Shown here piece by piece: positions 2,168 to 19,989 of a stretch of 36,594 nt of DNA. The translations under genes and the position numbers were made by a program. The stretch's first letter is position 1. The number at the start of each line of letters is the position of its first letter. Source of the stretch: a virus. The DNA lies in the IMG/VR virus record IMGVR_UViG_3300033149_002552, positions 1 through 36,594 of that record. One strand, 5' to 3'. Under the pieces are notes generated by a model. It made no database searches and was not told the origin of the DNA. It saw only the letters and a list, made by a program, of their open reading frames with translations.

Positions 2168-3043
2168 TCAAGCAGGTATCATCAATGGCGGTTGCGTCTC
2201 TCTTACACGTACCCGCCCTAGTCGTACCTCCTCAGTCATCGCCTCAAATCCCAGGTATTGCCGCCCTGTGAGTACCGCTGCTACTGCAGTAGACGCCCGC
2301 CCCATGAAGGGATCAAGGATAATGTCGCCCGTCACACTCACTATCTTGATGATCTGCCCCACCAGGTCAATCGGCTTCCCTGTCGGATGTCGCTCCTCAG
2401 TCTTGCCCGCTCGATTGATACGCTTCACGGCAAATATGAGTTCATAGCGACTAGGGGCAAGAGCGTCGCTTCCTACGAGGCAGGCTACGTTCGCAGGGTG
2501 ATTGCCTTGGCCGCTGTATTGATAGTCTTGGAATCGCTTGCTGCCCGAGCGGAAATGGCGGCCAGGAGTTAGAGAATGTCGTTTCGCTTGCCCCGCCTTA
2601 TTGCCCGAGATAGTTCCGCTCGGATAATGACACTTCGCGTCATCAAGTTCCATCAGCCGCGTATCCTTGCTCAGGAAGTACACCAAATCATAGCTCCGCT
2701 TCAATCGCCGAACGTGTACCGGCCTCCCGTTGCCCCATATCCAGAAGCCAACCTCCAGCACCTGCCAGCCAGCGGCCAGGACGTCCGGTATTCGTTCGTG
2801 TGCTACACGAGGCGCAATGGTGAAGGCCAGAAAGCCGCCGCTCTTCGTGACTCTGTAAAGCTCCTGCCAGATTGCAGGGTCGGGCCAGATGTCCCAGGGA
2901 CAGAGGTCTGCATTGAGACTCACCTGGTAAGGCGGGTCTGTCACAACGGCGTCTATGTAACCATCGGGCAAGTCTCGAAGAAGCGGCAGACAATCCCCGC
3001 AGTAGATTCCATTCTCAGGCGTACCATTCGGGCCAGGCTTCAC
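2168..3043 (-). CDS. DNA methyltransferase, N4/N6 amino class
   Basis: S-adenosylmethionine-dependent DNA methyltransferase, probably modifying adenine-N6 or cytosine-N4. The catalytic DPPY is at residues 36-39, after a GDCLPLLRDLP segment. The AdoMet-binding motif DPFMGRAST (244-252) comes near the C terminus, preceded by HPTGKP. This order (catalytic motif first) is the beta arrangement of the N6_N4_Mtase family. The AdoMet motif has R where F-x-G-x-G usually has the second G, a small deviation. The GTG start at 3043 overlaps the preceding TGA. No restriction enzyme is adjacent, so it is likely an orphan enzyme for protection or regulation. Last gene of the early operon. Confidence 0.88.
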   Translation of the reverse strand: MKPGPNGTPENGIYCGDCLPLLRDLPDGYIDAVVTDPPYQVSLNADLCPWDIWPDPAIWQELYRVTKSGGFLAFTIAPRVAHERIPDVLAAGWQVLEVGFWIWGNGRPVHVRRLKRSYDLVYFLSKDTRLMELDDAKCHYPSGTISGNKAGQAKRHSLTPGRHFRSGSKRFQDYQYSGQGNHPANVACLVGSDALAPSRYELIFAVKRINRAGKTEERHPTGKPIDLVGQIIKIVSVTGDIILDPFMGRASTAVAAVLTGRQYLGFEAMTEEVRLGRVRVRETQPPLMIPA

Positions 3044-3252
3044 GTAGCCTCCAGCTTGTCAAGTAGGCACTGCTGCATCAATTCCTTGTCGAAATGCCAG
3101 GCGTTGTCATGCTCACACTGCCCACACTCAACCCACCCCGTCATGCCCCGAAAATGAACCTTGAGCTGTGGCAGAGGATCACAGCGCAAGCCATGTTCTG
3201 TGACTGTGCCGATCACCGCCCCGCATCGCTCGCACTTCCAATCCTTGTCCAC
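3040..3252 (-). CDS. Small zinc-ribbon protein
   Basis: A 70-residue protein with two metal-binding pairs, CERC near the N terminus and CGQC in the middle, with further Cys/His (CEHDNAWHF, QQC). It looks like a zinc ribbon. It is translationally coupled to the methyltransferase (GTGA overlap) and is the first gene after the terminator at 3271-3302 and the promoter at 3318-3346. Function unknown; a nucleic-acid-binding or transcription-factor role is possible. Confidence 0.7.
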   Translation of the reverse strand: MDKDWKCERCGAVIGTVTEHGLRCDPLPQLKVHFRGMTGWVECGQCEHDNAWHFDKELMQQCLLDKLEAT

Positions 3253-4744: not shown

Positions 4745-4851
4745 CACTCCCTCCCCACCCTTCTCCACAGCCAGTCCATCCAGCGCGGCAGGGGTAGCAG
4801 CGCGTAGAGCGTGGACAGGCGCGGACGGCCTCGAAGGTAGATGATCTTCAC
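4741..4851 (-). CDS. 36-residue basic, Trp-rich peptide
   Basis: Short gene between the PAPS-reductase-like gene and the next helical protein, coupled to both by GTGA overlaps (GTG at 4851-4849; TGA at 4743-4741). The peptide is basic and rich in Trp and Leu (LPRWMDWLWRRVGREW), so it may associate with membrane or nucleic acid. The coupling pattern matches the rest of the operon, the main reason to accept it. Confidence 0.5.
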   Translation of the reverse strand: MKIIYLRGRPRLSTLYALLPLPRWMDWLWRRVGREW

Positions 4852-5657
4852 CCCGTCACCCCCGTCTCGCTGAATCGCGGCCTGTGCTCGAATAGCTCCA
4901 TTTGCGCCCGTGCCCTTGCCAACAATCCTCCGATACTCTGGCGTGCCGTCCACCGATGTCCGATTTCGGCCTCCACGTCCGCCGCTTCCCGCGCCAACTC
5001 AGGATGAATACGACAGAAATTGAGTACCTCGGCGCGTCGGGCCATGATGCAACACCAACAGCCGCACCGCGTGGCGTAGTTGTAGACGGGATTCGGCAGG
5101 ATACCGTGAGCGCGTAGGTACTCCCAGACTTCTCGTTCAGTCCAACGTAACACCGGCCTGCAAATCGGAATCGTCGTCTTATCACCCTTCGGATCAAACC
5201 AAGCCTTGTTCGCTCGGCTCTTCGACTCCTCGGCCCGCGTGCCCTCGATTGACACGGGATTCTCGAACTCCCGCTGGTAGTACAAGAGAGGATACCGCTT
5301 CAGGTAAGTCGTGCAATATCGATACCGTGGCGCGGGCCACCTGCCACGGAGCCGAACTAACTCGTACATGCTGCTCCCCCCTGAGAGTTCTTCTCTCGGC
5401 TCTCCGTTGCGCTTCGGTGGGAATGGCCGATCGCCGGCGCGTATGCGATCAATGGACACGCCCAGCTCTCGCTCGATGTAATTCAGGTATTCCAACGTTT
5501 CCGGCCACTCCACGCCGGTGTCCGCAAACACCACTTGAAGCCGTTCGCGCGGAAGATTTTCCAGCGACCACAATAGCGTCGCCGTGCTATCCTTCCCGCC
5601 GCTGTAGCTGACAATGTATGTCTCGAATGGCCGAAGCTCTGCAGGAATCCCGCTCAC
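4848..5657 (-). CDS. PAPS-reductase-family (PP-loop) protein
   Basis: A 269-residue member of the phosphoadenosine-phosphosulfate reductase/DndC-like PP-loop ATPase group. The P-loop SGGKDS is at residues 19-24, and family-type segments follow: VVFADTGVEWPET, RYCTTYLKRYP (Cys about 115), IEGTRAEESKSR and ICRPVLRWTEREVW. A Cys cluster RCGCWCC (about 198-203) and Cys 215 could bind an iron-sulfur cluster. The frame is open far upstream, but the GTG at 5657 overlaps the preceding TGA and starts just before the domain. Phage homologues are common and their substrate is mostly unknown; sulfur or nucleotide modification of nucleic acid is possible. No DndB/D/E genes are adjacent. Confidence 0.85.
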   Translation of the reverse strand: MSGIPAELRPFETYIVSYSGGKDSTATLLWSLENLPRERLQVVFADTGVEWPETLEYLNYIERELGVSIDRIRAGDRPFPPKRNGEPREELSGGSSMYELVRLRGRWPAPRYRYCTTYLKRYPLLYYQREFENPVSIEGTRAEESKSRANKAWFDPKGDKTTIPICRPVLRWTEREVWEYLRAHGILPNPVYNYATRCGCWCCIMARRAEVLNFCRIHPELAREAADVEAEIGHRWTARQSIGGLLARARAQMELFEHRPRFSETGVTG

Positions 5658-5893
5658 CCCGTCACCCCCACGTACACCGCCCCAGCCGCGAACTCCCCCT
5701 CCTCGATCACCGGCAGCCCGTTCCACGTCTCGGCGAACGGGTCCGCCATGAACACCGCTTCTGGCTCGCTGTCGTGCTTGCGCTGCCATGCCTGGTATGC
5801 AGTGAGCACGGCGGTCTGTGCGGCTTCCTGCTCCGTCTGCTTCTTGTCCGCTACGATTGTTGCGCCTTCGACCGTGTGCCATTTAGCTGCCAT
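5654..5893 (-). CDS. Hypothetical protein
   Basis: A 79-residue protein from ATG 5893 (MAAKWHTVEGATIVADKKQ). Helical middle (QEAAQTAVLTAYQAWQRKHD) and acidic C-terminal half (GLPVIEEGEFAAG). It overlaps the ABA-sandwich gene by 11 bases upstream and the PAPS-reductase-like gene by 4 bases downstream. A longer frame to 6019 would overlap the upstream gene heavily and is not favoured. Confidence 0.6.
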   Translation of the reverse strand: MAAKWHTVEGATIVADKKQTEQEAAQTAVLTAYQAWQRKHDSEPEAVFMADPFAETWNGLPVIEEGEFAAGAVYVGVTG

Positions 5894-9225: not shown

Positions 9226-10131
9226 TCACTCTCCTTCCGCCGCTTCCTCACCAGGCGAAAACGACTCATAGAACGGAACGTACAGCCTGTACACCGGCGC
9301 TTGCGGCTCAGGCGTCGGTTGCGGCGCGACGGTCGGCGTCACAGTCGGCACAGTTGCCAGCGCCGCGTATGTCCTGCCTAGATCCGTCATCACCGGCGTG
9401 TCACCGTCCCACACATAGAGCGACGTTCGCGGCCATTCACCATTCGGCAGGCCCGCGTAGAAGACGGCATATCGATCGACACGCTCATTGGCATCGAGCC
9501 ACAGCGTCATCTCTGTCAGCGTGTCCGCGTCCAGGTGGTCAAGCTGGCCGTATTCCGTCACCCAGCACTCCATACCTGGCGTCGCGTCTAGCCAGGCCTC
9601 GAGCTCGGATCGCCAGTCAGGGGAGAAGTTGGTATAGAGGTGGACGTGATACCCTGCAATTTCCTCTTCAGGCCAGCACCCTCGTTGGGCGTGCCACTCC
9701 TGCCGGAACGCTGCCAGCCGCCCCAGGCTAGGCGTAATCCAGCCGCCTATGATGGGCTTCCCCGACGGGTCGCCCTCCTTGATGACGCCCACCATACCGG
9801 CGTATTGCGTTACGGCGTCAACGGTGCTGATACCGTTGTGGTGTGGCTCGTTGCCTATGAGCCAGTACCCGCCTACGTAGCCACGGCCCGTGATGATCTG
9901 GACTCGTTGAATCTGCCAGAGTGCGCCGGTGAGCCCGTGGTAGAACATCGGCACCCATCCGGGCGTATCTCGTTCGCCCGCTCTCCACGTGTAGAACCAG
10001 TCAGCCCCCTGCTCCTGCATGATCTGAGCCACGCCGGGAACGTTATTGCCGCCGGGACCAGCTATGCCGCGCCCATCTGCCAGGGAGACGGTCGGGAGTA
10101 GTAGTATCGCCAGTAGTATCAGCTTTTTCAT
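9226..10131 (-). CDS. Secreted clan GH-A-like glycoside hydrolase with Pro/Thr linker
   Basis: A 301-residue exported enzyme. A clean signal peptide (MKKLILLAILLLPTVSLA) is followed by a TIM-barrel-like domain with GNEPH (E95, probable acid/base), HVHLY (162-166) and WVTEYG (E193, probable nucleophile). These spacings match Asl1-like/clan GH-A hydrolases. After about residue 262 comes a Thr/Pro/Val linker and a tail VYRLYVPFYES, like the C-terminal tails common in Chloroflexota exported proteins. It would act outside the host membrane on a glycan. It is unusual for a phage operon enzyme to carry a classical signal peptide; it could aid lysis, degrade capsule or be a host-derived gene. Confidence 0.75.
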   Translation of the reverse strand: MKKLILLAILLLPTVSLADGRGIAGPGGNNVPGVAQIMQEQGADWFYTWRAGERDTPGWVPMFYHGLTGALWQIQRVQIITGRGYVGGYWLIGNEPHHNGISTVDAVTQYAGMVGVIKEGDPSGKPIIGGWITPSLGRLAAFRQEWHAQRGCWPEEEIAGYHVHLYTNFSPDWRSELEAWLDATPGMECWVTEYGQLDHLDADTLTEMTLWLDANERVDRYAVFYAGLPNGEWPRTSLYVWDGDTPVMTDLGRTYAALATVPTVTPTVAPQPTPEPQAPVYRLYVPFYESFSPGEEAAEGE

Positions 10132-11929: not shown

Positions 11930-12168
11930 ATCGCCTCCTGGTTACACTCTGGGCATGGCACGCTCTTGCCGAACCAACGGTGCCACGCTGGGAACGGGAA
12001 CCGGATGAATCGCGCCCCGCCGCATATCTGGCACATACCACGCCTTCCCTGCTGAAATCGTACCCGCTCAATGCTCTCGTACTCGATGGGACTGGCAGTC
12101 GTGGTCAGGTCTACGCCCCTTCGTCTGAGCCTGTCCAGTTCGTTCCGTGCCTCGTTGTAGGTTGGCAT
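11926..12168 (-). CDS. Small zinc-finger protein next to the replication initiator
   Basis: An 80-residue protein. A helical N terminus (NEARNELDRLRRRGVDL) is followed by CQICGGARF and CPEC near the end, one treble-clef or ribbon-type zinc site. Its ATG overlaps the stop of the replication initiator (TAATG), so the two are co-translated. Such small partners of DnaD-like proteins can be helicase-loader remnants; this is only inference. Confidence 0.65.
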   Translation of the reverse strand: MPTYNEARNELDRLRRRGVDLTTTASPIEYESIERVRFQQGRRGMCQICGGARFIRFPFPAWHRWFGKSVPCPECNQEAM

Positions 12169-12974
12169 TATCCTGGCTCCAATTCTGCCACGTGCTGCTC
12201 ATATTCCTGGGGCGTGTACCATTTGCTCTCAGACGGCTTCGGCGGCGATATTCCCTGCTCCAGCATTGAGATCGCAAGCCCAGGGGGATTATTGACCTTC
12301 TTCCCTCGCTTCTTGATCTCAGAACACCAGGCGATCACGTGGGCGGAGGGGTGTTCCTGAGACAGTTCTTGGGCCATAGGCGCACTGATTCCCAGATCGA
12401 GAAGCGATTGCAACGCTTTTTTGCCGTTTTCCGAAACAGCAGCAGCATCGCGCGTCGTTTCCGCGCGCTCTGTCTCTGCTTCTGCTGCTGCATCTGCTCT
12501 GCTCTCTTCTGCATCTGCTCTGCTCTCTTCTGCTCTGCTCTGCTCTAGGGCCGTTTCTGGCCGTTTCGCACTCGTTACAGCCTCGTTACAATCCGTTACA
12601 GCCTCGTTACTCTCTTCGGCCTTGCGTGCGCGGTGTCGTTGCACTCTCTCTGCAACGGCCTCGGGTGAATCGCTAGGTGATCGGCGGTGGTGCTTGGCGT
12701 AGTTGGTCACGTACAGGACGCCGTCCCGCTCATCAATCATGCCTCGCTCCGTGAAGGCCGCAATAGCTTCGGTGAACTCGCTCAGCTCGCAGCGGATACG
12801 CCAGGCCGTTCGTTCTAGCTCGTCAAGCTGGCCGGTTTCCTTGCCGCCGTCCTTGTGATCCAGGCGTCCGGCTAATTGGAGTAGGGCGTCGAATATGCCA
12901 CGGTGCGCCCAGGAGAGGGAGCCGGTGTCGGGACTGTCGAGACCCTTGGTGTAGAGTTTGACCCAGGTTTTCAT
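12168..12974 (-). CDS. Replication initiator, DnaD-like/phage replisome-organizer type
   Basis: A 268-residue protein. The N-terminal domain (about 1-95: MKTWVKLYTKGLDSPD, SWAHRGIFDALLQLAGRLDH, a middle HTH-like region, then LYVTNYAKHHR) matches the layout of phage replisome-organizer winged helices. A low-complexity linker (about 110-180; repeated NEAVT and EESRADA units) leads to a C-terminal helical domain (ALQSLLDLGISAPMAQELSQ, PPGLAISMLEQG) like the DnaD/helicase-recruiting region. The linker DNA contains phased iterons (12551-12610) and 21-bp repeats (12490-12547), as the origin of lambda lies in gene O. It would bind the origin and recruit host helicase; no phage polymerase or helicase is present. 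Confidence 0.75.
   Translation of the reverse strand: MKTWVKLYTKGLDSPDTGSLSWAHRGIFDALLQLAGRLDHKDGGKETGQLDELERTAWRIRCELSEFTEAIAAFTERGMIDERDGVLYVTNYAKHHRRSPSDSPEAVAERVQRHRARKAEESNEAVTDCNEAVTSAKRPETALEQSRAEESRADAEESRADAAAEAETERAETTRDAAAVSENGKKALQSLLDLGISAPMAQELSQEHPSAHVIAWCSEIKKRGKKVNNPPGLAISMLEQGISPPKPSESKWYTPQEYEQHVAELEPG
12490..12547. repeat. 21-bp tandem repeats and TGCTC array inside the initiator gene
   Basis: Two exact 21-bp copies (12490-12510 and 12511-12531, GCATCTGCTCTGCTCTCTTCT at its core) followed by three GCTCT/TGCTC units to about 12546. The + strand is almost all pyrimidine. On the minus strand it encodes the repeated EESRADA linker of the initiator. It lies beside the iteron array. 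Confidence 0.85.
12551..12610. repeat. Six helically phased iterons; candidate replication origin
   Basis: On the + strand, YCGTTWC occurs at 12551, 12561, 12572, 12583, 12593 and 12604: two CCGTTTC then four YCGTTAC. Start-to-start distances are 10, 11, 11, 10 and 11 bp, one helical turn each. A related TCGTTGC follows at 12636, three turns further on. The array lies in the linker-coding part of the replication initiator gene, the position of the lambda origin within gene O. Confidence 0.7.
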
Positions 12975-13057: not shown

Positions 13058-13618
13058 CGTGTCTACGGTTTTCGCTCGGGCTTCCGACTCAACTCCAGGC
13101 TTCAACTGGATCCACGCCCGCGCCCTATGGGACGGAGCAGGACTCGAACCTGCTAACGGGGGATTGTGCTACCAGCCACCTAACCCCGCCTATCCGCCGG
13201 GTTCTCTGATAGTCATTCCCCGGCGGTGGGCACGCCACGCCTCACCCGTCCCTCGATTGCCCACCCCTGCCCCCTTCTGTGTGAGCTCACCATGCCCCCT
13301 AGCCCCAGACCGTTTGCATGGCTCCCGCGCTATCATCTGCCCTCAGTGGCCCGTCCTGGTCGCCCAATCCACATTGCCGTCAGACTGGATGCTCTGGCAA
13401 TCGCTATCGAGGCAAGCTGACGGTCTGCCATAATCCAGCAATTGCGGCCACATCGCAGGTTTGCCCAGGTCACATCGTTCTGAGGGGCATGGGAGCCAGC
13501 CACCCAACTGGCCCCCATGCCGAAAGGAGAAGTCGCGCCCGGTCGCCGTCTAAACCGTGTCTCTGCTGGCCTTGCGCCAAGTGTGTACCTGGCCGTCACG
13601 AACGACCGCGCGCTTCTC
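12975..13618 (-). other. Gene-poor gap before the replication initiator
   Basis: About 640 bases with no convincing gene on either strand. Frames on the minus strand (for example 13333-13599, and short peptides near 13200-13270) lack good ribosome sites and show no domain. The gap contains the tRNA-like segment at 13130-13199, an interrupted inverted repeat CCGTAG/CTACGG near 13045-13068 and a partial direct repeat CTCAACTCC (13019 and 13088). A leader RNA, regulatory RNA or decayed gene would all fit. Confidence 0.5.
13130..13199 (-). other. tRNA-like 3' half (T-arm and acceptor), not a canonical tRNA
   Basis: On the minus strand GCAGG-TTCGAGT-CCTGC (13153-13137) is a perfect T-arm. It is followed by TCCGTCC, which pairs with CGGCGGA at 13199-13193 in six of seven positions (one G-U, end mismatch). 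The middle cannot form a proper anticodon arm with T33, and the D-stem is poor. It may be a tRNA relic, a tRNA mimic or an old attachment core. Confidence 0.4.
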
Positions 13619-14806
13619 CTACCCCATAGCCAACTCCGGTTGCTCTGCTTTTTCCTCAGCCTCTATCTGCGAGTCAACCCACTTGCGAACCTGCTTGATT
13701 GCGTCCGTCCCGCTTCCCGCGTAGTCAGAGATATGCTCGACTCCGAGGGCTTCATGAACCTCCTCATCGGATAGACCCAAGCCGTCGTGCATCACGCCCC
13801 AAAAGGACTCGCGGGTGCTCTTCTGCTCAACCCAGTGCTTACCGTTGCCGTTGGTGGTAGGCTTCTTCTTCGTGGGAGCCTTCTTCGGCTTCGTGACCGT
13901 CTCCTGGGCCTCTCCCTCAGTCCCGTTGCCCCCCCCGATGTCTTCCTCATCGAGTATTTCGCCGGTGGTGACATCGACGACCTCTCCCTCGATGATGACG
14001 GTTGGAACGACTTCTGCAGGAGCGGAAAGGGCGGGGTAGCTGGCCTTCTTCATAGTCTCGATCTTGGCCCGCACCCAATCGCCGTCAGGCTCAATGGAGA
14101 GAAGCCAACTCTTGCGCCTGACCCTCTTTCCGCCTTCCCCCGGCGTGGAGATGTACTCTAGTCGCCGCCGGATCACCAGGGGCATCCCTGCCAGTCGTCC
14201 GCCGCCAGTTCTCTTTATCCCCCTCAACTGCTCATCGAGGTGATAGATGTCATTGATGGAGGTGGTATGGAGCGTGAGATAGGCCAGTCGTGCCAGCTCC
14301 TTGATAATCACCCGCAACCTACCCTCCTGCGAGCACTTGATAGGCTCTTGCTTCTTGCCCGCCAAGTAAGGCACCATCTGACCGCCCTTGCACGTCATGG
14401 CTACGCCCTGACATGGCACCCGCTCGCCAGTGTCAGTGGAGAGTCCGCCGTACACCAGCGGGCGTCCCGTCGCCGGGTCAATGGCGTAATGCACAAATCC
14501 CTCACCGGTTCGTGGATTCCTGTTACACCGGTGCACAAGCGCTCCCGTGACGTATGCCTCGTTCCAGGCCTCCCAGACTCTGTCCAAGTCATCGAAGGGG
14601 ATGAGCACATTAAGCAGCCTTGGCGTTTTCCCGTACGCTTTGAGGAACGCCTCTGCCGCTTCCTCTTCTCCCTCTTTGAACGTCACTCGAAAGTAGGTCA
14701 GGTCTTTGCCGATCACCCGCTTGTCCGTGGACTTGGGCGCTCCCTTGCGGATGTTGCCGATTTCCGGGAAGCTCGGCTCCCTGTTGGTCAATCCATTGAT
14801 AGGCAT
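13619..14806 (-). CDS. Probable recombination directionality factor, phiC31 gp3-like
   Basis: A 395-residue protein. The N-terminal 280 residues (MPINGLTNREPSFPEIGNIR; TPRLLNVLIPFDDLDRVWEA; GALVHRCNRNP; later CQGVAMTCKGGQ and TTSINDIYHLDEQL) resemble the gp3-like family, often annotated as hydrolase or metal-binding protein, which includes the phiC31 excision factor. Such a factor would bind the serine integrase and switch it to excision. A Lys/Thr/Gly linker (about 290-335) precedes a C-terminal helical domain (LGLSDEEVHEALGVEHISDY). ATG 14806 follows AAGGAG. It is in the lytic operon, opposite to the integrase, as the model requires. The assignment is from memory of the family. Confidence 0.55.
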   Translation of the reverse strand: MPINGLTNREPSFPEIGNIRKGAPKSTDKRVIGKDLTYFRVTFKEGEEEAAEAFLKAYGKTPRLLNVLIPFDDLDRVWEAWNEAYVTGALVHRCNRNPRTGEGFVHYAIDPATGRPLVYGGLSTDTGERVPCQGVAMTCKGGQMVPYLAGKKQEPIKCSQEGRLRVIIKELARLAYLTLHTTSINDIYHLDEQLRGIKRTGGGRLAGMPLVIRRRLEYISTPGEGGKRVRRKSWLLSIEPDGDWVRAKIETMKKASYPALSAPAEVVPTVIIEGEVVDVTTGEILDEEDIGGGNGTEGEAQETVTKPKKAPTKKKPTTNGNGKHWVEQKSTRESFWGVMHDGLGLSDEEVHEALGVEHISDYAGSGTDAIKQVRKWVDSQIEAEEKAEQPELAMG

Positions 14807-15092
14807 TATCTTCTCCTTCTCCAAATAAGTCTAACAAGTCCGTTGCAATCTCTTCGGGTGTTAGCTCCGTGAATCCGCTCAACTGAGGGAAAACGCGCTG
14901 TAACTCTAACCCCTCCATGAAAGACTGCTGCGCGCGTAGCTCAACCGTCGTTTGCCGGATGAATCCCCTGTGATCGTGGTTCCGGCCACACACGACGTGT
15001 AGGCCGTTGTAGTCGTGGATCTCAAGCAGATGCCCCTCACACTGTGCGCAACAGTAGGCGCGTAGGAGCAAGCGATTGAATAGGGCGGTCAT
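14610..15092 (-). CDS. Zinc-finger-like protein overlapping the RDF-like gene
   Basis: A 160-residue frame. The first 95 residues look real: a Cys pair CCAQCEGH, then VVCGRNHDHRGFIR, a C2HC-like site, and a helical part ending in an acidic EELTP-type region. The last 66 residues overlap the start of the RDF-like gene by 197 bp, are Gly/Gln/Arg-rich and look like out-of-frame coding. Either the overlap is true or a frameshift has removed the stop. Function unknown. Confidence 0.6.
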   Translation of the reverse strand: MTALFNRLLLRAYCCAQCEGHLLEIHDYNGLHVVCGRNHDHRGFIRQTTVELRAQQSFMEGLELQRVFPQLSGFTELTPEEIATDLLDLFGEGEDNAYQWIDQQGAELPGNRQHPQGSAQVHGQAGDRQRPDLLSSDVQRGRRGSGRGVPQSVRENAKAA

Positions 15093-17852: not shown

Positions 17853-18338
17853 GTGAAGAAGAAGCTCCTCATCGGTTGTGGCGGTGGCTTTTTCGCGTGC
17901 GTTCTGATCAGTATCATTATCGGTCTGTCTCAAGACACGCCCTCAAACACAGATATAACCAGCACGCCCCGGCCAACGATTACGCAGAAGTCAGTAGACC
18001 CGACGCTAACTACGTACACTCCCTGGCCGACGCCGACGCCGTCACTTACCCCGACACTGACGCACACACCAAAGCCAACGCATACCCCAGAGCCGACGCA
18101 CGCTCCAACGGAGACGCCGACGATCACTCCGAGCAGAACCCCACGCCCCACATACACGCCACGCCCAACCAACACGCCCGTTCCCTGTCCCTACATCGGA
18201 AACAGCAACTCCAAGAAGTTCCACCATCACTGGTGCAACTCAGTAGACGACATGAAGGACAGTCACAAGGTCTGTTTCCAGACGCGCGAGGAAGCGGTCG
18301 CAGCGGGTTATGAGCCTTGCGGGAACTGCAAGCCATGA
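17853..18338 (+). CDS. Membrane-anchored protein with Thr/Pro stalk and Ada-like zinc domain
   Basis: A 161-residue protein. A short basic start (KKK) precedes a hydrophobic anchor (about residues 5-24). A Thr/Pro-rich stalk (about 30-111) of the type common in Chloroflexota surface proteins follows. The C-terminal 50 residues (YIGNSNSKKFHHHWCNS, VCFQTREEAVAAGYEPCGNC) match the small Ada-type metal-binding module found at the ends of nucleases and surface proteins (C128, C156, C159 and His). The GTG at 17853 follows AAAGGA; an earlier GTG (17829) falls in the opposing promoter. It is expressed from the lysogeny side, so it is a candidate lysogenic-conversion protein. Its stop overlaps the next ATG. 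Confidence 0.72.
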   Translation: MKKKLLIGCGGGFFACVLISIIIGLSQDTPSNTDITSTPRPTITQKSVDPTLTTYTPWPTPTPSLTPTLTHTPKPTHTPEPTHAPTETPTITPSRTPRPTYTPRPTNTPVPCPYIGNSNSKKFHHHWCNSVDDMKDSHKVCFQTREEAVAAGYEPCGNCKP

Positions 18339-18469
18339 ATCCCACCCGCTGGGCCAACGTCCGCTACGTCGCCACTCTAATCCTGGCCGTAGCCCTGGCC
18401 GCGATCCCCGCCGCCTTTGCCCTGGGTGCAGCCTGGACGGTGCTCAGATGGGCGGCGGGCTTGCCGTGA
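18335..18469 (+). CDS. 44-residue membrane peptide coupled to the zinc-domain protein and integrase
   Basis: ATG at 18335 overlaps the upstream TGA (ATGA), and its TGA overlaps a GTG for the integrase (GTGA). One strong hydrophobic segment (about residues 12-36, VATLILAVALAAIPAAFALG). The precise coupling on both sides makes it credible. It may be an anchor partner of the zinc-domain protein or a small exclusion factor. Confidence 0.6.
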   Translation: MNPTRWANVRYVATLILAVALAAIPAAFALGAAWTVLRWAAGLP

Positions 18470-19989
18470 CGTACATCCGTGACGACTGCCCCCTACCCCC
18501 TGGCTCCTCCATCTACGCCTACCTCCGCGTCTCCGGAGAGGATCAGGCCGAGCGTGGCACGCCGATCGCAGGACAGAGGCAGGAGCTAGAGCGATACATC
18601 CAGGCTCACGGCCTGGTACTCGCTCACATCCCCTTCATCGACGAAGCCCGATCCGGCTCCTCCACGGCTGGACGAGATGCTTTCATGCACATGATCCAGG
18701 CAGCCCATAACGATCACCGCGCCGACGGGGTGGTATTCTGGTCGTGGGCTCGCTTCGCACGTGACGAGACCGACGCGCACTTCTACAAGGCCGATCTGAG
18801 ACGCCACGGTCTCGCCGTTTGGAGTCTCACCGACGACGTGCCCAGCGGCGAGTTCGAGTATGTCTTTGAGGCGATGATTCACTGGAAGGACGCTCAGTAC
18901 ATCCAGCAGCTATCGCGCAACATCCGCCGCGGCATCCATCTGCTCGCTCAGCAAGGATACGCGCACGGCGGCTTTCCTCCACGTGGCTACTTGGCTGAGG
19001 AGTTGGAGATCGAGGTCGAAGGGAAGCGCAAGAGGGTACGACGGTGGATCCCGGATCCTGAACTGGCACCACGTGTCCGGAAGGCGTGGGGGATGCGAGC
19101 GACCGGCAGCACCTACAGGGAGATACACGAGGCAACGCGCCTCTTCCGTGGCGTCGGCTGCTATAGCTCCCTTTTTTCTTGCGAGACGTACCGAGGCATC
19201 CGCTACTGTGGCAAAACGAGAGTGGAAGACGCTCACGAGGCCCTATGCACTCCGGAGCAGTGGGACGCGGTCCAAAAACGACGGCGACGCGGCGGGCCAC
19301 GACCGAAAGAGAGACGCGAAACGACACGCCCGAATAGCACGTTCATCCTCACCGGCTTGCTCAGGTGTGGCGTTTGCGGCGGGCCGATGGTCGGGTCCAC
19401 GGATAGGCCGCACTCCCGAGACGGCAACACCCACGGCGAGTACCGGTATTACATCTGCTCTCGAAAGAAGGCTCAGTATTCGGCTTGCCCGTCGTCGAAG
19501 ATGAGCGCGCGGGTCATCGAGGACGCGGTCATTGAGGTGCTCACGGAGCAGGTGCTAGAGCCGGATCACATGGTAGCACTCTGCGAGGATGCGCGGGACA
19601 GACTGAGCGAGACGCACACCGACCTGCAATCGGAGCACGACCGGCTGGTGAAGGCAACCGCGGCGGCGGACACGCGGCTCAATCGAGTGCTGGACGCCAT
19701 AGAGGAGCGGGGCTTCTGCGGGTCACTGCAGAAGCGCCTTGACCAACGAGAGGCAGAAGCGGCGCAACTGAGGAGCGAACTGCGAGACCTGGAACGAGAG
19801 ATAGAGTCACGGACTGTCGGAGTAACGACAGAGGAACTGCGCGGAATTGTCGAAGGGCTGAGGGAGAGGTTGCGGAAGCCACCGAGATCCAGCTTGGTGA
19901 GACGCGCCCTGGGTCTCTTCGTCTCGGAGATCACAGTCACCCGCGAGGGAGGTGTTATCTCCTACTCTTTCCCTACGTCGGTCTTTTGA
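18466..19989 (+). CDS. int: Large serine recombinase (integrase)
   Basis: A 507-residue site-specific recombinase that would insert and excise the phage. Resolvase domain about 14-155: catalytic serine in YLRVSGEDQ (S23), then DEARSGSS and WSWARFARD. Recombinase domain about 165-290 with GGFPPRGYL. Zinc ribbon with C301/C304 (CGVCGGPM) and C331/C341 (YICSRKKAQYSAC). A coiled-coil insertion (about 380-450) is where directionality factors act in this family. The GTG at 18466 overlaps the previous TGA; an in-frame ATG at 18448 is equally possible. The gene 3' end is half of a 52-bp palindrome, the candidate attP. Confidence 0.92.
   Translation: MTYIRDDCPLPPGSSIYAYLRVSGEDQAERGTPIAGQRQELERYIQAHGLVLAHIPFIDEARSGSSTAGRDAFMHMIQAAHNDHRADGVVFWSWARFARDETDAHFYKADLRRHGLAVWSLTDDVPSGEFEYVFEAMIHWKDAQYIQQLSRNIRRGIHLLAQQGYAHGGFPPRGYLAEELEIEVEGKRKRVRRWIPDPELAPRVRKAWGMRATGSTYREIHEATRLFRGVGCYSSLFSCETYRGIRYCGKTRVEDAHEALCTPEQWDAVQKRRRRGGPRPKERRETTRPNSTFILTGLLRCGVCGGPMVGSTDRPHSRDGNTHGEYRYYICSRKKAQYSACPSSKMSARVIEDAVIEVLTEQVLEPDHMVALCEDARDRLSETHTDLQSEHDRLVKATAAADTRLNRVLDAIEERGFCGSLQKRLDQREAEAAQLRSELRDLEREIESRTVGVTTEELRGIVEGLRERLRKPPRSSLVRRALGLFVSEITVTREGGVISYSFPTSVF

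Follow-up and report, generated by a model that had tools for sequence, protein, structure and literature searches.

An array of short iterons spaced by one helical turn inside a phage initiator gene very probably forms the phage's replication start site

Replication origins that lie inside the gene of their own initiator are already known, from a few laboratory phages. Rep2009 of Tuc2009 and ORF13 of TP901-1 bind repeats located in their own genes, and these repeats act as the origin (PMC8965321); the Tuc2009 record annotates orf16 with the words "contains origin of replication". SPP1 gp38 binds oriL inside gene 38 (PMC6316719), and no complementation in trans is possible for ORF20 of 80alpha, which suggests an embedded origin (PMC5499656); a rep_origin of 80alpha is annotated in DQ517338. 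In lambda, the iterons are inverted repeats of 19 bp that adjoin an AT-rich region (PMC7466680), and those of RepA_N initiators and of PLE RepA are longer, semi-palindromic repeats that converge on a poly-A tract (PMC7145576). For most uncultured phages the origin has not been mapped, as neither GC skew nor homology is very informative about it.

In this work we analysed a viral sequence of 36,594 nucleotides (IMG/VR record IMGVR_UViG_3300033149_002552; this whole stretch of DNA is called the window below), in which the initial annotation had described a phased iteron array and proposed a lambda-type origin. We consider it highly likely that the array is the iteron part of an origin embedded in the linker-coding part of the phage's own initiator gene, and it very probably forms the replication start site of this phage. 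An origin inside the initiator gene, as proposed, is the most likely reading, given the constraint on the array at the DNA level and its placement in that gene. The features of the locus are given below; slots are positions on a ruler whose origin is the first GTAACG (GTAGCG in the relative L003).

12168-12974, minus strand: initiator gene (replisome-organiser-like, 268 amino acids) with the array in its linker; open reading frame with PHROG and Phage_rep_org_N matches.
12612-12974, minus strand: N-terminal domain, residues 1-121, a winged helix according to an AlphaFold2 model and structure matches.
12615-12665, minus strand: basic helix after the wing, residues 104-120, including AVAERVQRHRARK; candidate specificity element, from the conservation of R110 and R115.
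12636-12642, minus strand: degenerate upstream site GCAACGA (TCGTTGC on the plus strand) at slot -32, three turns off; GAAACG occupies slot -32 in L002, L349 and L351.
12604-12610, minus strand: iteron at slot 0, GTAACGA; kept in L002, L349 and L351, GTAGCG in L003.
12593-12599, minus strand: iteron at slot +11, GTAACGG; from the motif search and the ruler applied to relatives.
12583-12589, minus strand: iteron at slot +21, GTAACGA; from the motif search and the ruler applied to relatives.
12572-12578, minus strand: iteron at slot +32, GTAACGA; each of the four close relatives with this motif has GTAACG here.
12561-12567, minus strand: iteron at slot +43, GAAACGG; GAAACG in L003 too.
12551-12557, minus strand: iteron at slot +53, GAAACGG; from the motif search and the ruler applied to relatives.
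12467-12546, minus strand: purine-rich tandem (AGAGCAGAGCAG.., period 21 and 5), candidate region for opening or loading, scored 115 by Tandem Repeats Finder.
12171-12407, minus strand: C-terminal region, presumed to recruit the replisome; without visible relation to the C-termini of relatives.

The array consists of six copies of YCGTTWC that start on the plus strand at 12551, 12561, 12572, 12583, 12593 and 12604 and read GWAACGR on the coding (minus) strand; the steps of 10, 11, 11, 10 and 11 bp reported for them are confirmed. The seventh-like site noticed three turns further on is also present: TCGTTGC occupies 12636-12642, at a distance of 32 bp from the first complete site. The window contains 27 copies of YCGTTWC in total, against 14.6 expected (standard deviation 3.7; maximum 22 in 100 shuffles). 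Nowhere in the window outside the array does G[AT]AACG form a one-turn chain longer than a single site, and the longest chain in 100 first-order Markov windows was one or two sites.

The open reading frame at 12168-12974 (minus strand), whose linker contains the array as claimed, matches the PHROG for DnaD-like helicase loaders with an E-value of 1.2e-8. Matches to Phage_rep_org_N (PF09681) have E-values of 0.0029 for the whole protein and 0.00056 for the N-domain, both below the gathering score (20.3 bits for the N-domain alone, with a cut-off of 23.3); PF09681 is matched at E <= 0.001 by 21 of the 55 family members, and the NCBIfam match of the N-domain is also below its cut-off. The initiator has no RepA_N match in Pfam and no O-family match in Pfam or PHROGs, and one of six relatives shows a weak match to an O-like PHROG (E 0.0042). 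The AlphaFold2 model of the N-domain, made with 55 family members, has a pLDDT of 92 and predicts a winged helix with a basic helix behind it. The best solved structures for this model are the plasmid replication initiators 5kbj, 4pql, 4pt7 and 4pta (Z 8.8-9.3, about 10-12% identity to the N-domain), matches that give support at the level of the fold only, because ORC2 winged helices score nearly as high; the named viral structural matches are mainly "replisome organizer". A full-length model with six relatives had a pLDDT of 51 and was left unused. We conclude that the gene encodes an initiator of the replisome-organiser type, whose DNA-binding N-domain is predicted to be a winged helix. R110 and R115 are nearly invariant in the 55 sequences, and the pattern R[VQA]..[HYF]R is found in 94 of the 108 genes with at least three GTAACG or CGTTAC as opposed to 5 of the 32 with none, counts that ignore kinship. 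The basic helix (residues 104-120) is nominated as the candidate reader of the motif.

The array is flanked by the winged-helix part of the gene on one side and by the purine-rich tandem on the other. The coding strand of the tandem is 75-82% purine, with an A+T content of 40-47% in a genome of about 42% A+T; a classical AT-rich unwinding element is missing, since the A+T content of the tract is no higher than that of the genome. Of 152 family genes, 141 have a higher purine content in the linker after the array than in the N-domain. A change of GC skew near 12.5 kb, which had been suggested as a check, was looked for and is absent: the detrended cumulative skew has no extremum there, and its minimum, at 16.9 kb, lies at the gene-strand switch. 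The third-position G-C skew of minus-strand genes is 0.078 to the left of 12.5 kb and 0.001 to the right, a direction that fits a bidirectional origin in a comparison where arms and gene classes are confounded. The 114-bp direct terminal repeat behind the 36,480-bp circle on which the skew was to be followed is real.

Among the other readings, the one that survives best is that the array is an operator, by which the initiator or another phage regulator controls the transcription of its own operon, the origin being elsewhere; we regard it as unlikely. The same anatomy is an origin in Tuc2009 (PMC8965321). The array is situated within the coding region, 365-425 nt from the initiator start codon, where an intragenic array could be a roadblock, but it is not at the promoter. 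Winged-helix proteins are often repressors and the sequence matches to the domain profile are mostly transcription regulators, whereas the best structural matches are replication initiators, and an operator would leave without a role the purine-rich tandem that usually accompanies the array.

A role of the array in partitioning the phage as a plasmid prophage, as a centromere-like or incompatibility site, is very unlikely. Partition proteins of the winged-helix type do bind short arrays with helical phasing, but the window encodes a recombination-directionality-like protein and a large serine recombinase, which suggest integration. In addition, neither a partition ATPase nor a filament protein was recognised among the open reading frames tested, and throughout the family the array lies within an initiator gene.

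The recombinase gene lies at 18310-19989 (plus strand) and that of the Gp3-like recombination-directionality-factor protein at 13619-14824 (minus strand), and they plausibly form an integrase/excision pair. Two runs of 18-bp tandem repeats occupy 18060-18178, just before the recombinase start codon. A tRNA-like relic with a good T-arm (GCAGGTTCGAGTCCTGC) is located at 13131-13190 (minus strand), where ARAGORN calls no tRNA and the Rfam score, 14.6 bits, is sub-threshold; it is possibly the trace of an old attachment site. Rfam finds nothing at 11.5-13.7 kb. The window also carries, on the minus strand, a DNA methylase gene (2168-3043), a PAPS-reductase-like gene (4848-5882) and a glycosyl-hydrolase-like gene (9226-10131).

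The codons of the initiator gene do not explain the array, as had already been argued. When synonymous codons were permuted within the gene, protein and codon usage being fixed, a chain of at least four sites arose in 2 of 20,000 permutations and a chain of six in none. The six sites are in codon frames 1, 0, 1, 0, 2 and 0, so that all three frames are used and no amino-acid repeat accounts for the array. A 21-bp in-frame near-duplication within it (NEAVTDC/NEAVTSA) may have built part of the array; it leaves the last two sites and the -32 site unaccounted for.

A protein-only search yielded two relatives, L002 and L003, and a profile search added L349, L351, L352 and the distant L354; no protein relatives were found in annotated phages at an E-value of 1e-3, nor in bacterial genomes. 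The N-domains of the six relatives are 52-64% identical and the C-termini 9-24%. As the N-domains are alike and the C-termini are not visibly related, the array marks the joint beyond which the C-terminal domains differ. The same phased array, which the initial annotation had advised seeking in relatives' initiator genes, was found in L002, L003, L349 and L351: slots 0, 11, 21, 32, 43 and 53 are mostly filled in these four genes (at least five of six letters matching within one base, which is the case for 0.7% of positions by background rate), and each contains an exact chain of four GTAACG, matched by none of 300 codon permutations. In L002, L349 and L351 an inverted CGTTAC stands beside an empty slot. 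The encoded residues differ among the four genes while the DNA sites and their phase persist, the opposite of the case that would have spoken against an origin, in which the amino-acid repeat is kept and the DNA motif lost. In L352 (1501-2376), GTAACG is absent and every copy is switched to GTCACA with the phase kept, four copies being spaced by 11, 11 and 21 bp, a chain matched by none of 300 permutations. The array is constrained at the DNA level. That it is a by-product of the linker protein, produced by slippage and in-frame duplication of the NEAVT codons and devoid of DNA function, is extremely unlikely: the 21-bp near-duplication does make part of the array and the adjoining purine tract is a tandem of the slippage type, but this reading is contradicted by the use of three codon frames and the outcome of the 20,000 permutations, by sites that stay while residues change, by the existence of inverted copies and of arrays on the non-coding strand, and by the concerted motif change in L352.

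Two further observations were made on the relatives. L352 lacks the RV.RHR pattern after the wing. In L002 the initiator gene is directly followed by an IstB/DnaC-like ATPase gene, as would be the case for a loader; among the window open reading frames tested, none was recognised as a helicase loader.

The breadth of the GTAACG class was assessed with a scan of 2.9 million viral contigs, blind to protein, for three GTAACG at 10-11 bp, which gave at least 120 loci. Among the matches listed, the array is inside an initiator-family open reading frame in 78 of 120 loci, which is not a count of independent events because several matches are near-identical phages. Counted in codons from where the winged helix ends, the array starts between -2 and +20 in 70 of these 78, and at +31 in one more. 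The family was defined with the profile of the window N-domain, iterated on the open reading frames of the collected loci, which gave 178 open reading frames; the iteration was made partly on motif-selected loci, and the domain region used excludes the array. With the scrambled control motif GATACG, 2 of 120 loci were in family open reading frames, both initiator-like and with the repeat at the same place in the linker. GATACG occurs every 12 bp at this linker position in the initiator-like genes L244 3685-4293 and L344 7207-8100, and shows a peak at 10-bp spacing in viral contigs. When gaps were left free (0-30 bp), family open reading frames accounted for 26 of 112 loci, with spacings nearly all of 10-13 and 20-24 bp. 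Over all family genes, spacings are confined almost wholly to 9-12 and 20-24 bp, the counts being 108 for 10 bp, 141 for 11, 89 for 12 and 18 for 21, with almost none at 13-19.

Once near-duplicates are removed, at least three GTAACG or CGTTAC are present in the linker of 108 of 153 family genes, a share that is inflated because many loci were motif-selected. In a motif-blind set of 37 Phage_rep_org_N genes, about six have at least three GTAACG; therefore GTAACG is one class and is not universal. Most of the other genes of this set show no significant iteron by our test, and nearly all have a purine-rich tandem. Of 118 phased GTAACG arrays in bacterial genomes, only 19 lie within family genes, so that the motif by itself is no proof of an origin. 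DUF1376 genes from one bacterial order gave a single match, too few for use. Phased GTAACG/CGTTAC arrays were also seen outside family genes in Bacteroidales genome contigs (L356, L407, L454, L457 and others), several of them in one assembly, and L067 has GTAACG on both strands at 11 bp (2996-3060) with no long open reading frame covering them.

From these sequences we infer that the window initiator would bind the array cooperatively and that replication would start here. In the mechanism that we propose, the N-domain would bind one GWAACGR per helical turn, and six (or seven) initiators would therefore line up on one face of the DNA over about 60 bp, where they would probably touch one another; the linker and the C-terminal domain would bring in the helicase loader or the helicase, and the duplex would open at or beside the adjoining purine-rich tandem. 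Binding on one face, once per turn, is the most likely mode, and is supported by the phasing, the co-location and the concerted motif change; helicase loading and duplex opening are steps that we infer. The N-domain and the GTAACG array behind it might constitute a single portable initiator-plus-origin cassette, present in a very wide set of phages, a proposition that we find evenly balanced. Because the array sits at the joint, the C-terminal domains could be exchanged without separating the DNA-reading domain from its sites.

In the open papers that we searched, we found no description of the breadth of the GTAACG class or of its co-inheritance with the N-domain; an earlier mention is possible. 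What would interest specialists is this breadth, together with the concerted motif change and with an N-domain and array that stay stable as C-terminal domains change. The rule that a short motif repeated once per turn directly after a winged helix marks an origin would predict origin, initiator and iteron together in many phages, and could be checked with one protein and one short duplex. The relatives in which the whole array has gone from GTAACG to GTCACA or to another motif offer a natural experiment on the co-evolution of initiators and their sites.

The comparison with known systems places this locus as follows. RepA_N plasmid initiators and PLE RepA, which bind iterons, resemble the modelled N-domain in its winged-helix fold (Z about 9, with ORC2 winged helices scoring about the same), and their iterons are longer and semi-palindromic, unlike the short direct sites of the window (PMC7145576). 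Of the proposed lambda-type origin, the position in the middle of the initiator gene holds, as in ori-lambda, where iterons also lie beside a compositionally skewed tract; the initiator family, the type of iteron and the AT-rich tract differ, since the window has direct 6-7-mers at each turn, no AT-rich tract and no O-family match. The lambda label is thus an analogy, because lambda iterons are 19-bp inverted repeats by an AT-rich region, and one site per turn, if true, would make a one-faced initiator filament, an origin geometry unlike that of lambda. 80alpha ORF20 and SPP1 gp38 with oriL are replisome organisers whose genes contain the origin (PMC5499656, PMC6316719), and the window protein is probably of this kind. 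The window protein differs from 80alpha ORF20, whose C-terminal family is Phg_2220_C, and from the SPP1-type oriL/oriR (PMC6316719) in having a purine-rich tract and no AT-rich unwinding region by the direct repeats. No one-turn hexamer array was found in 80alpha or TP901-1 by the test used for the window, and the window-family profile matches none of the initiators of Tuc2009, TP901-1, r1t and 80alpha, which makes the likeness to proven origins one of anatomy and not of homology. This anatomy is that of Tuc2009 orf16 and of r1t ORF11, an origin by similarity: their motifs differ from that of the window, being CAACCA in Tuc2009 and GGAACC in r1t, and in both genes, as here, the motif recurs in the linker, four times at exactly 11 bp, and is followed by a purine-rich tandem.
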